43,121 nucleotides of DNA, taken from NCBI GenBank assembly GCA_018648225.1, contig JABGRQ010000113.1, forward strand, positions 1 to 43,121, read 5' to 3'. The notes under the pieces were generated by a model that saw only the letters and a program-made list of their open reading frames with translations, was not told the origin of the DNA and made no database searches. Of this stretch, positions 37,975 through 42,499 are shown piece by piece; position 1 is the first letter of the stretch; every line of letters starts with the position of its first letter. The DNA comes from Chloroflexota bacterium (lineage in GTDB: Bacteria; Chloroflexota; Anaerolineae; Anaerolineales; UBA11858). Both the position numbers and the translations under genes were made by a program.

Positions 37975-38040
37975 AGACCTCCGAGATTTTATTGGGATTA
38001 ATTTTGGATGCGCATTCTGATGTAAAAATCTCGGAGGTCT
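37975..38040. repeat. 16-bp inverted repeat upstream of the MEMO gene
   Basis: AGACCTCCGAGATTTT (37975-37990) and AAAATCTCGGAGGTCT (38025-38040) are a perfect inverted pair with a 34-nt spacer. It may be another small repeat element or a long stem-loop in the divergent intergenic region. Confidence 0.7.
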
Positions 38041-38070: not shown

Positions 38071-38100
38071 TTGACACGTCTTTTGCACTCATGATAGACT
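38071..38100 (+). promoter_or_regulatory. Promoter of the leader peptide-MFS unit
   Basis: TTGACA (38071-38076) and TAGACT (38095-38100) are separated by 18 bases, with AAGGAG and the leader ATG downstream. Confidence 0.65.
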
Positions 38101-38137
38101 CCACGAGCTAAAATCTTTGAAAGGAGAGCGCACGAAA

Positions 38138-38230
38138 ATGACAAGCTATTTCACGATGCAAGTTAAAGTCCGCCGCTCTGCCAATATTGGTGGAGATGTT
38201 TTGCTGGCTCGGAGTGCGCCTACTGCCTGA
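38138..38230 (+). CDS. 30-residue leader peptide upstream of the MFS gene
   Basis: A short frame (MTSYFTMQVKV... ending RSAPTA) starts 11 bases after AAGGAG and about 40 bases after a promoter. It is followed by a small hairpin (GATTTAG/CTAAATC, 38233-38252) and two intrinsic terminators before the MFS gene. The layout fits a regulatory leader peptide whose translation controls read-through, as known for several drug-efflux and ribosome-protection genes. The peptide is basic in the middle and has no membrane segment. A free-standing small peptide is the alternative. Confidence 0.55.
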   Translation: MTSYFTMQVKVRRSANIGGDVLLARSAPTA

Positions 38231-38255
38231 GAGATTTAGTCTAGCCTAAATCGCC

Positions 38256-38291
38256 AAAGCCACGGGTGTACTTCAAGCCCCGTGGCTTTTT
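38256..38291 (+). terminator. Terminator 1 of the MFS leader
   Basis: AAAGCCACGGG (38256-38266) and CCCGTGGCTTT (38279-38289) form a perfect 11-bp stem with a 12-nt loop and a five-T run. Confidence 0.8.
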
Positions 38292-38323
38292 GATTCGCTC
38301 GCGCGCGAAGTTGAACCTCTATA

Positions 38324-38357
38324 AAAGGTCACGGGAAAGATGCCCCGTGGCTTTTTT
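38324..38357 (+). terminator. Terminator 2 of the MFS leader
   Basis: AAAGGTCACGGG pairs with CCCGTGGCTTTT, with G-U positions, followed by more T. It shares CCCCGTGGCTTTTT with terminator 1, so the pair looks like a tandem duplication. Confidence 0.65.
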
Positions 38358-38393
38358 ATTTTCTTCAAACGAGGATGAGAGAGAAGGACAAAC

Positions 38394-39629
38394 ATGCAAA
38401 CAACAACGAAGAAAGAGAAGAAAGAACCGCTGCTCAGCAATATCCTCAAATTGTTTATGTTCGCTATGGTGTTGGCAAATATCGCGGGCAGTATGTATGG
38501 TTCATTGCTACCGCTTTACCTGAAAAGCCTCAATGCCAATGTGCTGCAAGTTGGGTTGTTTTTTACCCTGTCGAATATTCTGCCATTAATTTTGCAGATT
38601 TTGGGCGGATGGATATCGGACTCGCTGGGTCGCTTGCGTAGTATCGCCATGGGCAGCGTTGCCGGAGTCATTGCGCATATCGGCATTGTGTTGGCGCCTA
38701 CCTGGCAGTGGGTGTTGTTCGGGGAAGGTTTTGGCGCTATCACCCGTTCGCTGGTTGGCCCCAGTTTTAGTTCGTTTATCGCCGACCAGTCAGCCGAAAA
38801 AAACCGCGCCCGCGTCTTTGGCATCACCGAGAGCATTTTTATGCTGGTGGTCGTCATCGGCCCGCCGCTGGGCGGCTGGTTGGCCGATGCGTACGGCTTC
38901 AAGTTCATGCTAATTATTGCAGCGGTTCTGTATACCTTCGCGGCGTTAATTCGCATTGGCATGGCGCGCACGGCAGCCAAAGGCGCGGAAGCAAACCCCG
39001 AAAAACTATCGCTGGCTAGTTTGAAAGAAAAGCTTAGCGCAATGACCGTGCTGCTGCTAGCCGGGGGTGTGATGACCTGGGTGCTAGTTACCGATGGTGT
39101 ACGCGATATCGCCTATACGATGTCTTTTACACTGGAATCACTCTATCTGAACGAAATCGGCGGGCTGACGATGAAGCAAATCGGCTTCCTGGGATCAATT
39201 TTTGGCATTTGTAATATGATCACCACCATTCCAGCGGGCAAATTGGCCGACAAGAAAGGCGAACGCGTCGCTATTGCGGGCGGTTTTTTGCTGGATGCTA
39301 TCGGGCTAATTATCTTCCTCAATGTATACAGTTTTTGGGGTTACGCGATCGCCTGGGGCGTTTTTGGAATTGGGGTAGGCCTGATGTCACCCGCCTACCA
39401 ATCGCTGATCAGCAAAGCTGTCCCCGAAAAATTGCGCGGCACGGCCTTTGGTCTGCTGCATAGCAGCCTGGGGCTATTCTCGCTTCCTGCTCCGGCAATC
39501 GGCGCGCGATTGTGGACTCGCTACACGCCACAGACGCCCTTCCGCATCACAGCCGGTGTCGCCTTGCTTACCATAATCCCGGTCTGGCTAAAGTTTAAGC
39601 TACCGGATGATGAGAATGAAGAAAAATAA
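38394..39629 (+). CDS. Major facilitator superfamily transporter
   Basis: The 411-residue protein has 12 predicted membrane helices. The MFS motif A region between helices 2 and 3 reads GGWISDSLGRLRSIAMGSV, and the equivalent loop in the second half reads GKLADKKGERVAIAGGF. It would exchange or export a small molecule using the proton gradient; multidrug efflux is common for this type. AAGGA is five bases before ATG 38394. The upstream leader has two terminators, so expression is probably attenuated. The two tandem-GNAT genes that follow on the same strand could modify the same compound. Confidence 0.88.
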   Translation: MQTTTKKEKKEPLLSNILKLFMFAMVLANIAGSMYGSLLPLYLKSLNANVLQVGLFFTLSNILPLILQILGGWISDSLGRLRSIAMGSVAGVIAHIGIVLAPTWQWVLFGEGFGAITRSLVGPSFSSFIADQSAEKNRARVFGITESIFMLVVVIGPPLGGWLADAYGFKFMLIIAAVLYTFAALIRIGMARTAAKGAEANPEKLSLASLKEKLSAMTVLLLAGGVMTWVLVTDGVRDIAYTMSFTLESLYLNEIGGLTMKQIGFLGSIFGICNMITTIPAGKLADKKGERVAIAGGFLLDAIGLIIFLNVYSFWGYAIAWGVFGIGVGLMSPAYQSLISKAVPEKLRGTAFGLLHSSLGLFSLPAPAIGARLWTRYTPQTPFRITAGVALLTIIPVWLKFKLPDDENEEK

Positions 39630-39686: not shown

Positions 39687-40694
39687 ATGACGACAAAAAA
39701 AACGCTGATTATCCCAGAATCACCCCCAATTCCAGGATTGAACGTCCGCTACTTTGAGGGTGAATCGGATTATCCAAACATCATCGCAGTTTTCGATGCT
39801 TGTAAAATTGTTGACGATGTGGAGTACAGTCTCACACTGGAAGGTGTGAAGCACCACTTTGAACATATCATCAACAGCGACCCCTTCACAGATATGATTT
39901 TTGTGGAAGTGGATGGGCAAGTGGTGGCCTACGGGCGCGTGGGATGGTATGAGGAGAGCAACGGAAATTACATCTACTATACCCTGGGGTGGGTACACCC
40001 CAAATGGCGGCGCAAAGGCATTGGCACGGCAATTTTGAAGCACAATGAGCGCCGTGCCCGCGAGATTGCGGCCAAACATCCAGCGGACGCGCCCAAATTT
40101 TTCCAGACCGATCACAGCGACAAACAACCCGGCGTGGCAGCCTTGCTAAAGGCTAATAGCTACGAAGAAACTCGTTGGGGCTATGAGATGCAGCGTCCAA
40201 CCGATGCCCCCTTGCCCGATGCGCCTATGTCGGAGGGTTTGGAAGTGCGCCCGGTGGATGAAGCGCATTATCGCCCGATCTGGGATGCGGACAACGAAGC
40301 TTTTCGCGATCATTGGGGCCACAGCGAGCGCACAGAAGAAGAATATCAGCGCTGGCTGGCCGAACCGGTAATTTTCACGCCCCACCTATGGAAAATTGCC
40401 TGGGACGGCGACGAAGTGGTCGGGATGGTGCGCAATTTTGTAGACGAAGATGAAAATAAAGAATATGACCGCAAACGCGGCTACACCGAATTCATCTCTG
40501 TGCGCAAACCCTGGCGACGACGCGGCGTAGCCCGCTCGCTGCTGGTGCAAAGCATCGAAATGTTCCGCGAGATGGGCTTTGCTGAGACCGTTTTGGGCGT
40601 AGATACGCAGAACCCCAACCACGCGCTCAATTTATATGAGGGTGTAGGGTATCAGGTGATACGCAAAAATACATTGTATCGGAAAGAATTGTAG
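39687..40694 (+). CDS. Tandem GNAT acetyltransferase
   Basis: The 335-residue protein holds two GNAT domains. The first (about 20-165) has the acetyl-CoA motif VHPKWRRKGIGTAIL, the second (about 180-335) has VRKPWRRRGVARSLLVQS and ends NPNHALNLYEGVGYQ. Both P-loop-like R-x-x-G-x-G/A motifs are intact, so both could bind acetyl-CoA. GNATs acetylate amines, including aminoglycosides and protein ends; the substrate is unknown. A GGAG-type site precedes ATG 39687. It follows the MFS gene by 57 bases and is followed by a C-rich repeat and a second tandem-GNAT gene of the same size. Confidence 0.85.
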   Translation: MTTKKTLIIPESPPIPGLNVRYFEGESDYPNIIAVFDACKIVDDVEYSLTLEGVKHHFEHIINSDPFTDMIFVEVDGQVVAYGRVGWYEESNGNYIYYTLGWVHPKWRRKGIGTAILKHNERRAREIAAKHPADAPKFFQTDHSDKQPGVAALLKANSYEETRWGYEMQRPTDAPLPDAPMSEGLEVRPVDEAHYRPIWDADNEAFRDHWGHSERTEEEYQRWLAEPVIFTPHLWKIAWDGDEVVGMVRNFVDEDENKEYDRKRGYTEFISVRKPWRRRGVARSLLVQSIEMFREMGFAETVLGVDTQNPNHALNLYEGVGYQVIRKNTLYRKEL

Positions 40695-40700
40695 TAAAAA

Positions 40701-40800
40701 GCCCTCTCCCACCCCCAATCACTATGTTAGTTTCCCCCTCCCTCTCCCAATTGTGGGAGAGGGAGGGGGTGGCCCGAAGGGCCGGGGGAGGGTGAGGGCA
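40701..40800. repeat. C-rich palindromic repeat, copy 4
   Basis: CCCTCTCCC and CCCTCCCTCTCCC blocks followed by GGGAGAGGGAGGGGGTGG and GGGGGAGGGTGAGGG, forming an almost complete palindrome around 40755. It lies between the two tandem-GNAT genes, just before the ribosome site of the second. Confidence 0.8.
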
Positions 40801-40811
40801 AGGAGAATATC

Positions 40812-41828
40812 ATGACAACAACACTACCAGACGGCTTTACTGCCCGTCCTTCATCGCTGGACGAAATCCCTGTCGCGGTTGAGTTTTTCAATGCCCATTC
40901 GATGCATTATTTGGGCATTGAGAATCAACAGGAGAGTTCCACCAGAGCCGAATGGACGATTCCAAAATACAACCCCGCCACGGATTCCCGCATGGTTTAT
41001 GCTCCCACGGGCGAACTGGTGGGCTACATCGAAGCATGGACGATTGATAACCCGCCGGTGCAATCCTGGGTATGGTATCGCGTGCATCCCGACTATGAAG
41101 GTATAGGCATCGGCGAGTGGCTGCTGGAGTGGGGCGAAGCGCGCGTTCGTCAGGTCATTCCGAGTTGTGCTGACGATTTACGCGTAGTCTATCGCAGTGG
41201 GGTTAACACCCAGATCACTGTAAATAAACAGCAGATGGAAGCTTTTGGGATGCAGCTCATTCGGCATTTCTTTCGTATGCTCATCGAGTTTGACGCCCCG
41301 CCCCCGGCTCCGGCATGGCCTAAGGGCATCACCGTACACACGCCGGATGATCCTGAAGCTGAAATTGAAGCCATTTACCGCGCCGATAATGAAGCCTTCC
41401 GCGATCATTTTGGGCATATAGAGCAGCCCTTTGAAGACGGCTTCCCTGAATTTCGGCATTGGTTTTTGAATAATAATGAGATACATGATCCATCCATGTG
41501 GTATCTGGCAATGGATGGCGACAAAATTGCTGGCATTGCCTTGTGCATCAAACGCGATCCCGAAGACAAAGAATGCGGTCACATAGAGAGCCTGGCAGTG
41601 CTGCGCCCGTATCGGCGGCGTGGGTTGGGGTTGGCGCTGCTGCATCACGCTTTTGGCGAGTACTATCACCGCGGCTACAAACGGGTTTCGCTGGGCGTGG
41701 ATGCACAGAATTTGACCGGTGCTTTAGGACTCTACAAACGCGCCGGGATGCATGTCAGCCGTCAATTTGATATGTACGAGAAAGAACTGCGCCCCGGCAA
41801 AGAAATTAGTGTAAAATCATTGACGTAA
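40812..41828 (+). CDS. Tandem GNAT acetyltransferase, second copy
   Basis: The 338-residue protein has the same two-domain layout as its neighbour and is probably a diverged duplicate. The C-terminal domain keeps an intact acetyl-CoA motif (VLRPYRRRGLGLALLHHAF) and ends NLTGALGLYKRAGMHVS. The N-terminal domain has VHPDYEGIGIGEWLLEW, where the basic residues before the Gly loop are lost, so only the second half may be active. AAGGAG lies before ATG 40812. Its substrate is unknown; position suggests co-function with the MFS transporter. Confidence 0.85.
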   Translation: MTTTLPDGFTARPSSLDEIPVAVEFFNAHSMHYLGIENQQESSTRAEWTIPKYNPATDSRMVYAPTGELVGYIEAWTIDNPPVQSWVWYRVHPDYEGIGIGEWLLEWGEARVRQVIPSCADDLRVVYRSGVNTQITVNKQQMEAFGMQLIRHFFRMLIEFDAPPPAPAWPKGITVHTPDDPEAEIEAIYRADNEAFRDHFGHIEQPFEDGFPEFRHWFLNNNEIHDPSMWYLAMDGDKIAGIALCIKRDPEDKECGHIESLAVLRPYRRRGLGLALLHHAFGEYYHRGYKRVSLGVDAQNLTGALGLYKRAGMHVSRQFDMYEKELRPGKEISVKSLT

Positions 41829-41884: not shown

Positions 41885-41899
41885 AGAATGGAGAATTTT

Positions 41900-42499
41900 A
41901 TGATTACTACAATATTATGGGACATTGGCGGCGTGATTTTGCGGACAGAAGATCCTGGTTCGCGCGAGCAACTCGCCGCAGATTTGGGGCTGACGCGCCA
42001 CGAGTTAGAGAAACTGGTCTTTGGGGGCGATCTCGGCACGCGCGCCCAAAAAGGTGAGATCACCCCCGAGGAACTGTGGGCCTCTGCAAGGTCCGCGCTG
42101 AAGCTTCCCTCCGATGCCTATCCAGACTTTGGCGAGCGTTTTTTCGGCGGTGACCGCATAGATCACGATCTGGTCAATTTTATCCGCAGCCTGAAACCGC
42201 GCTACAAAATCGGCATTATCAGCAATGCCTGGAAAGATTTACCCACGGCACTGACGCGCTGGGGCATCGCCGATGCGTTTGAAATGGTGGTGGGTTCAGG
42301 GGATGAAGGGATGATGAAACCCGATGCCCGCATTTATCAACTGGCTTTAGCACGGGCAGACGCCCAAGCCAACGAATGTGTTTTTGTTGATGATTTCCCC
42401 CACAATATTGAGGGCGCGCAAGCTGTGGGAATGCAGGGCATTCTGTTCCGTAGCGCTGAACAGGTAAGGAATGAGCTAAAGAATTTGCTCGAAGCTTAG
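41900..42499 (+). CDS. HAD-superfamily hydrolase (subfamily IA type)
   Basis: The start is best placed at ATG 41900, six bases after GGAG; ATG 41888 lies within the ribosome-site region. The 199-residue protein has motif I ILWDIGGVIL (nucleophile Asp; the usual second Asp is Gly, as in DxGGV members), motif II IISNAW, motif III Lys in MMKPDARIYQLAL and motif IV FVDDFPHNIEGAQ. A helical cap of ~80 residues follows motif I. It is probably a small-molecule phosphatase or related hydrolase. Its 3' end overlaps the convergent GGDEF gene by a few bases. Confidence 0.87.
   Translation: MITTILWDIGGVILRTEDPGSREQLAADLGLTRHELEKLVFGGDLGTRAQKGEITPEELWASARSALKLPSDAYPDFGERFFGGDRIDHDLVNFIRSLKPRYKIGIISNAWKDLPTALTRWGIADAFEMVVGSGDEGMMKPDARIYQLALARADAQANECVFVDDFPHNIEGAQAVGMQGILFRSAEQVRNELKNLLEA

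Follow-up and report, generated by a model that had tools for sequence, protein, structure and literature searches.

A promoter, a short leader ORF, two terminators and four genes follow one another on the forward strand of the window (the whole analysed stretch of 43,121 nucleotides, from a genome of 4.02 Mb in 226 contigs). The promoter consists of the hexamers TTGACA (38071-38076) and TAGACT (38095-38100) with an 18-nt spacer. It was the best promoter-like site of the region and matched the consensus in 10 of 12 positions, with a TG ahead of the second hexamer. The promoter scan gave 11 sites compared with 5.9 ± 2.3 in shuffles, a result which alone is weak; CTTGAC and the -10 core were kept in all ten aligned leaders. 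The transcription start was assumed to be at about 38107. The leader ORF (38138-38230) has 30 codons (MTSYFTMQVKVRRSANIGGDVLLARSAPTA) with the ribosome site AAGGAGAG upstream. Its codons 10-12 (38165-38173), Lys-Val-Arg, form a +x+ motif of the macrolide/ketolide-arrest type, as this motif is explained in PMC10314930 and PMC8298421, and are the presumed stall site.

Between a divergent Memo-like gene and the promoter we also found an inverted repeat of at least 13 bp at 37975-38040 (AGACCTCCGAGAT... / ...ATCTCGGAGGTCT). Its arm was present at 64 places in the genome with at most one mismatch, compared with 2 for the reversed control, and the copies often formed inverted pairs less than 100 nt apart, indicating a dispersed palindromic repeat family.

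A hairpin within the leader ORF (38176-38195) may act as a pause hairpin. A small hairpin, GATTTAG-TCTAGC-CTAAATC (38233-38252), stands directly after the stop codon and is followed by terminator T1 (38256-38291; 5′ arm 38256-38266, 3′ arm from 38278, U tract 38287-38291) and terminator T2 (38323-38357), with near-identical stems (GCCACGGG/CCCGTGGC and GTCACGGG/CCCGTGGC). The whole leader folded with -92.4 kcal/mol (z -1.9 compared with shuffles), an energy which alone is not striking. Rfam gave no match in the whole window at the gathering score, and at a lax threshold the leader region showed only a chance-level match on the opposite strand (E 0.36).

Only 36 bases separate T2 from the first target gene, and they contain no promoter-like site. 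This gene (38394-39629) encodes an MFS transporter (PF07690, E 1.8e-48) which matched general MFS models, the tet-type and multidrug models staying below their cut-offs. It is followed by two genes encoding two-domain GNAT proteins (39687-40694 and 40812-41828) and one encoding a HAD-family hydrolase (41888-42499). A GC-rich inverted repeat (CCCTCCCTCTCCCAATTGTGGGAGAGGGAGGGGGTGGCCCGAAGGGCC...) was observed at about 40700-40800, between the two GNAT genes.

Through tblastn of the 30-residue leader peptide against 201 relatives, 21 genomes gave matches at E ≤ 1, and ten genomes including that of the window were judged real by eye, the ribosome site and both terminators being also present. Weak peptide matches (L011-L019, L021 and L022) had no terminator pair behind them and were judged by eye to be chance. 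In the ten close relatives, the peptide residues M1, R12, S14, A15, G19, R25, A27 and P28 were kept, residues 10-12 read [K/R]-x-R in all ten despite codon differences, and the stem core of the small hairpin was kept in nine. The leader is located directly before an MFS gene in G000, G005 and G006, before an MFS gene after an intervening ORF in G001 and G011, and before an ABC ATPase gene in G012, G014, G019 and G159; in G004 the contig ends there. The first-pass annotation of this locus had described a promoter, a 30-residue peptide with its own ribosome site, a small hairpin and two near-identical intrinsic terminators ahead of the MFS gene, and all of them were found in place and conserved in the relatives. 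Among MFS relatives outside the family (L030-L052), a pattern search detected no leader motif in up to 900 bases upstream (shorter in L035 and L047), so the element is not one that merely accompanies the MFS clade of the window.

The RNA core is predicted to be a six-segment switch, in which segment B pairs with either A or C, T1 is formed by C and D, T2 is formed by E and F, and D:E pairing is possible. Segment A (38121-38133) is the ribosome-binding region of the leader ORF, and segment B (38211-38221; GGAGTGCGCCT, RNA GGAGUGCGCCU) is the end of the same ORF. Segment C (38264-38274; GGGTGTACTTC) comprises the 3′ part of the T1 5′ arm together with the loop, and segment D is the 3′ arm of T1 from 38278. 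Segments E (38323-38335) and F (from 38343) make up T2. According to the co-variation and the fold of the window, A pairs with B through GCGCAC:GTGCGC; B can form 11 contiguous pairs, GU included, with its antiterminator partner C (RNA GGGUGUACUUC), and E can pair with D. Antitermination through pairing of the 3′ side of the in-ORF hairpin with T1 was considered on paper and dropped, as only four pairs are available.

A covariance model (R1) built from the ten close-relative leaders detected nine sites at E < 1e-35 in nine of the 21 family genomes, besides weaker ones. At E ≤ 0.1 it matched 16 of the 21 family genomes and 138 of 396 class genomes, about 40 genomes being expected by chance, and roughly a hundred of the matches listed in the class search had E ≤ 1e-4. 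A second model (R2) was built from 100 sites, and its structure included A:B and T1 only. At E ≤ 0.01 it matched 49 of 400 phylum genomes: the window's own, 32 of the same order, five more of the same class and 11 elsewhere in the phylum. Nine of these 11 were read, and most had a leader and a terminator; one R2 match outside the class (L241 in G831) does not look real. A pattern scan of a named genome collection revealed 69 stretches, 68 of them with Chloroflexota-type names, and the carriers included the cultured strains Anaerolinea thermolimosa IMO-1 and Levilinea saccharolytica KIBI-1. One pattern match (L266), with a typical leader and an ABC exporter, came from a MAG labelled Chthonomonas calidirosea, by name a member of another phylum. 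The leader is thus a member of a large family of putative attenuators, present in the class of the window and, sparsely, in its phylum. The 125 sites collected were the best search matches and not a random sample, and many of the genomes are incomplete; an antisense match in L176 was dropped from the set.

The first downstream ORFs (123 sites; L060 and L081 had none) contained the Pfam domains ABC_tran (60), ABC_membrane (35), Acetyltransf_1 (23), RsgA_GTPase (11), MFS_1 (7) and RIO1 (3). ABC-F ribosome-protection-like proteins were also found, and the targets were mainly ABC exporters, DrrA-like ATPases, GNATs, RsgA, MFS and ABC-F proteins. A second element in the genome of the window (L069/L235, G000:C53:693-840; leader MAQVYMAKSLVREVRLAPNC) precedes an rsgA gene. 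For the MFS gene and the three genes that follow it, relatives stand immediately downstream of such elements in other places (50% to L077 for the first GNAT gene, 42% to L172 for the second and 45% to L157 for the HAD gene), and the operon therefore resembles a combination of several targets of the system. The suggestion of the first-pass annotation that the operon would give inducible resistance to a translation-targeting compound is in keeping with this target spectrum; we infer that induction occurs, as well as its inducer and what the window MFS transporter carries.

Comparison of own with swapped partners over the 125 sites gave -18.48 vs -15.21 kcal/mol for B:C (z -14.6), a pairing absent from the search model, and -17.02 vs -14.43 kcal/mol for A:B (z -11.8), z scores which are inflated by the relatedness among the sites, a relatedness that the controls share. 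In both cases none of 5000 permutations was as good, and the swap controls gave -1.3 (upstream-of-B with C), +0.6 (A with C) and +3.9 (spacer with C). In 100 aligned sites the B:C columns were 88.7% paired vs 24-62% when slid, and the A:B columns 89.6% vs 11-67%. Cells changed on both sides numbered 52 for B:C (14.8 ± 3.2 shuffled) and 31 for A:B (5.9 ± 2.1 shuffled). Exchanged pairs were found for instance in G006 (GCGAAGTGCGCCT with GGGTGCGCTTCGC) and in L147 (TCAAGATGCGCC with GGGTGCATCTTG). A stricter test was made with 48 further sites, which remained from the 69 pattern loci after eight were lost to a failed arm pattern and 13 proved to be repeats of earlier sites; B:C gave z -2.8 (16 of 5000 permutations), A:B z -3.3 and the control +1.1. 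A weaker signal is expected here, as the pattern itself fixed B.

A second terminator was located within 130 nt in 79 of the 125 sites, compared with 3% in shuffled sequence. D:E pairing was also better with own than with swapped partners (z -12.3), although duplication of T1 into T2 by copying would equally make D and E fit. In the other 46 sites T2 was not found by the search, so a relay through D:E is not universal.

The leader reading frame was examined in 124 sites, with the start codon picked by the ribosome site alone and the stop ignored. The stop was located 9-42 nt past the start of B in 119 of the 124 sites, compared with 59 of 248 when the two remaining frames were read. B itself was read in frames 0, 1 and 2 at 103, 5 and 16 sites, respectively. 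Therefore translation nearly always crosses B, and B is kept as RNA; such translation through B is what is needed if a finishing ribosome must cover B. Retention of B in other frames speaks against a functional peptide as the reason for the conserved peptide end RSAP, and this reading was rejected.

Folding calculations were made for 119 sites. The mean probability of T1 was 0.89 with no ribosome, 0.90 with a terminating ribosome and 0.68 with A masked, and that of B:C was 0.02, 0.00 and 0.20, respectively; with A masked T1 still wins in most sites. In the window, B:C reached 0.99 before D was made whenever B was free, and with an initiating ribosome it was 0.90 after D was made. A stalled ribosome alone, with A free, gave B:C 0.02 with A:B and T1 favoured, so a kinetic decision must be assumed; with a second ribosome queued behind it, B:C was 0.15 and T1 0.85. 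Masking A thus acts in the right direction, with a size that is too small unless folding is decided during transcription, and the equilibrium model only partly supports the switch. For 76 sites, D:E before F was made had a mean probability of 0.82 with C masked vs 0.19 with a terminating ribosome. At equilibrium T2 wins in the window, where it was still 0.90 with A masked, and on average (0.71), so the D:E relay, if real, is kinetic. For the same reason we discarded D:E as the state that the window RNA would reach at equilibrium, and kept it solely as a co-transcriptional step.

Between A and B the leaders are very diverse across the family. Peptide motifs were counted in 119 of the 125 sites, which contain 118 distinct leaders. 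[KR]-x-[KR] was found in 40 of the 118 compared with 26.2 ± 4.0 in residue shuffles, and in 32 it had a hydrophobic centre (12.2 ± 3.0 shuffled). After dereplication at <40% identity the excess of +x+ was modest (25 of 84 leaders, 17.3 ± 3.2 shuffled, with 22 of 2000 shuffles as high), and the form with hydrophobic centre remained in 19 of 84 (8.3 ± 2.6 shuffled, none of 2000 as high). The occurrences cluster at 13-17 codons before B, 36 of 43 starting 14-16 codons before it. By eye, +x+ is common in leaders of the DrrA-like ATPase cluster and of the MFS cluster of the window, and rarer in those of the ABC exporter cluster. In the window leader, a ribosome stalled with Val11 in its P site would occupy about 38153-38185; B would then stay accessible, and a second ribosome would have space on A. 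The stretch of peptide encoded between A and B has the look of a sensor that can be exchanged. Six ABC-F genes (L215, L217, L219, L220, L221 and L238) are preceded by variants of another leader type, M(I/R)Y...IGVRGF...RIAP. These GVRGF-type leaders have little or no ribosome site and a start codon close behind a TATAAT-like box, and are perhaps leaderless mRNAs.

Two of the sites precede aminoacyl-tRNA synthetase genes, one a LeuRS and one an AspRS; among the genomes of the two families concerned, many contain two copies of the respective enzyme. The element (R2) was detected ahead of 23 of 26 spare LeuRS loci (L166 type) and none of the four other-copy loci searched; the three spare loci without it (L313, L334 and L335) are stretches shortened at a contig end. 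For AspRS it was detected ahead of all six spare loci (L170 type) and none of the 21 other-copy loci searched. The leaders of the spare LeuRS genes are rich in Leu (fraction 0.202 vs 0.066 in 115 other leaders), and 15 of 23 contain a run of three Leu, often LLLG, compared with 1 of 115 others. Those of the spare AspRS genes are rich in Asn (0.184 vs 0.049), and all six have four or more Asn within nine consecutive residues, as do none of 115 others. Each of the two leader sets is related by descent, so they count as two evolutionary cases and not as 29. The use of Asn and not Asp codons would be understandable if the AspRS also charges tRNA-Asn. These Leu- and Asn-rich leaders are what classical attenuation predicts, whereby a starved codon upstream of B would turn the gene on. 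The spare LeuRS (L312-L337) and AspRS (L342-L347) copies are also candidates for inducible resistance to synthetase inhibitors.

Considering these features, the locus most probably works by ribosome-mediated attenuation of transcription, the leader peptide being a sensor that can be exchanged. As long as the leader carries no ribosome, A would pair with B, leaving C free, T1 would form and transcription would stop. With full translation of the leader, the ribosome would cover B up to the stop codon, and T1 would form and stop transcription as well. If a macrolide-like or other translation inhibitor held the ribosome upstream of B, here probably at Lys10-Val11-Arg12, with A occupied or out of reach, B would pair with C. 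T1 would then be blocked, the freed D would pair with E of T2, and the MFS-GNAT-GNAT-HAD operon would be transcribed, presumably as one transcript and with a putative drug-pump role of the transporter. What speaks for this reading at the sequence level is the conservation, the co-variation of A:B, B:C and D:E, the ORFs running past B in any frame and the codon-matched leaders of the spare synthetases. The first-pass annotation had proposed attenuation by stalled leader translation, and the conserved leader, the co-varying antiterminator B:C, the ORF ends past B and the LeuRS and AspRS leaders bear this out; it had missed the antiterminator itself, the sequestered ribosome site, the terminator relay and the membership in a large family.

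A general sensor of translation slowdown, which would need no more than a ribosome positioned at the ribosome site and start codon or close to them, and in which the peptide would give no drug specificity, is unlikely but has to be weighed. An initiating ribosome alone gave the high B:C value in the window, the peptides are very diverse, and 11 of 123 targets are RsgA GTPases, a ribosome-assembly factor, all of which would agree with such a sensor. However, the codon-matched LeuRS and AspRS leaders point to selection on the peptide, as do the enrichment of [KR]-hydrophobic-[KR] and the fixed spacing of +x+ to B, and leader types go with target types.

That the leader ORF makes a working peptide, with the hairpins as ordinary terminators of a short gene, or that control is translational, seems very improbable: the good ribosome site and the residues R12, S14, A15, G19, R25, A27 and P28 conserved in ten close relatives would fit a functional peptide, but the peptide end is conserved as RNA, B being in frame 1 or 2 at 21 of 124 sites and co-varying with A and C, unrelated peptides stand on the same RNA core, and no long helix over the MFS ribosome site was seen in the folds. 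We give equally little credit to a ligand-binding riboswitch or T-box with an incidental ORF. A conserved structured leader before several target types would be expected of it as well, but the window gave no Rfam match at the gathering score, no conserved aptamer-like part was seen beyond A, B, C and D, and the end of the ORF is fixed in position.

The element thus carries the sequence-level features of a ribosome-mediated transcription attenuator, the reading that we prefer. Of the features of the trp type, the window has a short ORF with a ribosome site between a promoter and an intrinsic terminator, and co-variation supports mutually exclusive anti-antiterminator, antiterminator and terminator helices, the balance at equilibrium agreeing only in part with expectation. 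Codons in the leader that reflect the function under control were found for the LeuRS and AspRS members only, and not in that form for the window MFS; the macrolide-arrest motif of the mef/erm type is present in the window leader as KVR. In trp-type attenuators of E. coli, segments pair as 1:2, 2:3 and 3:4, the terminator forms without a ribosome or after full translation, and a stall leads to the 2:3 antiterminator. The family described here shares the three-state logic and, in the LeuRS and AspRS cases, stall codons that match the target. It differs in that segment 1 is the leader's own ribosome site, segment 2 lies inside the ORF, the targets are mostly resistance or ribosome-care genes, and a second terminator may be tied in via D:E. 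Ribosome-mediated attenuators of the trp type are cited in PMC4191407.

According to PMC4335068, PMC10314930 and PMC8298421, the attenuators of mef(E)/mel (mefA/msrD) and erm(D/K) likewise have a +x+ leader, a terminator with an alternative fold and an MFS efflux or resistance gene. Their likeness to the window leader is one of motif; here the leader end is part of the switch, and +x+ is located at codons 10-12 of 30, compared with codons 6-8 in ErmDL. The bmrB-bmrCD system of Bacillus subtilis (PMC4191407) is ribosome-mediated attenuation of an ABC multidrug exporter, and 35 of 123 first genes here encode an ABC exporter membrane domain. It is a single Firmicutes system, and in the available part of that paper a shared A:B:C core with exchangeable leaders is not described for bmrB. 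In the histidine-leader attenuators of hisS paralogues in bacilli (PMC2965389), a paralogous aminoacyl-tRNA synthetase also follows a leader rich in its own codons, a likeness of leader codons; they belong to another phylum, whereas LeuRS-Leu and AspRS-Asn occur here in the same RNA family as drug-type leaders. The main text of that genome-wide attenuator survey from 2010 does not contain the word Chloroflex, and in an open-access library, with most subscription papers and preprints outside its scope, we found no such element described for Chloroflexota. By analogy, the putative working mode is known from trp-type, mef/erm and bmrB attenuation. Novel aspects are the family as such, a segment 1 that consists of the sequestered ribosome site, the location of B within the ORF, a sensor exchangeable across drug-type and tRNA-type signals, and a possible terminator relay.

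We might further speculate, with moderate confidence, that this is a plug-in sensor typical of the phylum, in which one switch (A:B/C:D/E:F vs B:C/D:E) would take about 20 codons of any arrest sequence, and Chloroflexota exporters, ABC-F proteins, acetyltransferases, RsgA and spare tRNA synthetases would answer whichever inhibitor stalls that peptide. If this is true, nature would offer in these diverse leaders a collection of arrest peptides for antibiotics that are largely unknown, and the spare LeuRS and AspRS would serve to defend the cell, on induction, against synthetase inhibitors. An internal check of the mechanism is provided by the LeuRS and AspRS members, and the cultured carriers make the family testable. 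A mostly uncultured phylum would then sense many translation inhibitors with one attenuator design, the sensor of which could be read from sequence; every leader would offer a candidate for an arrest peptide, and every gene behind one a candidate for resistance or rescue.
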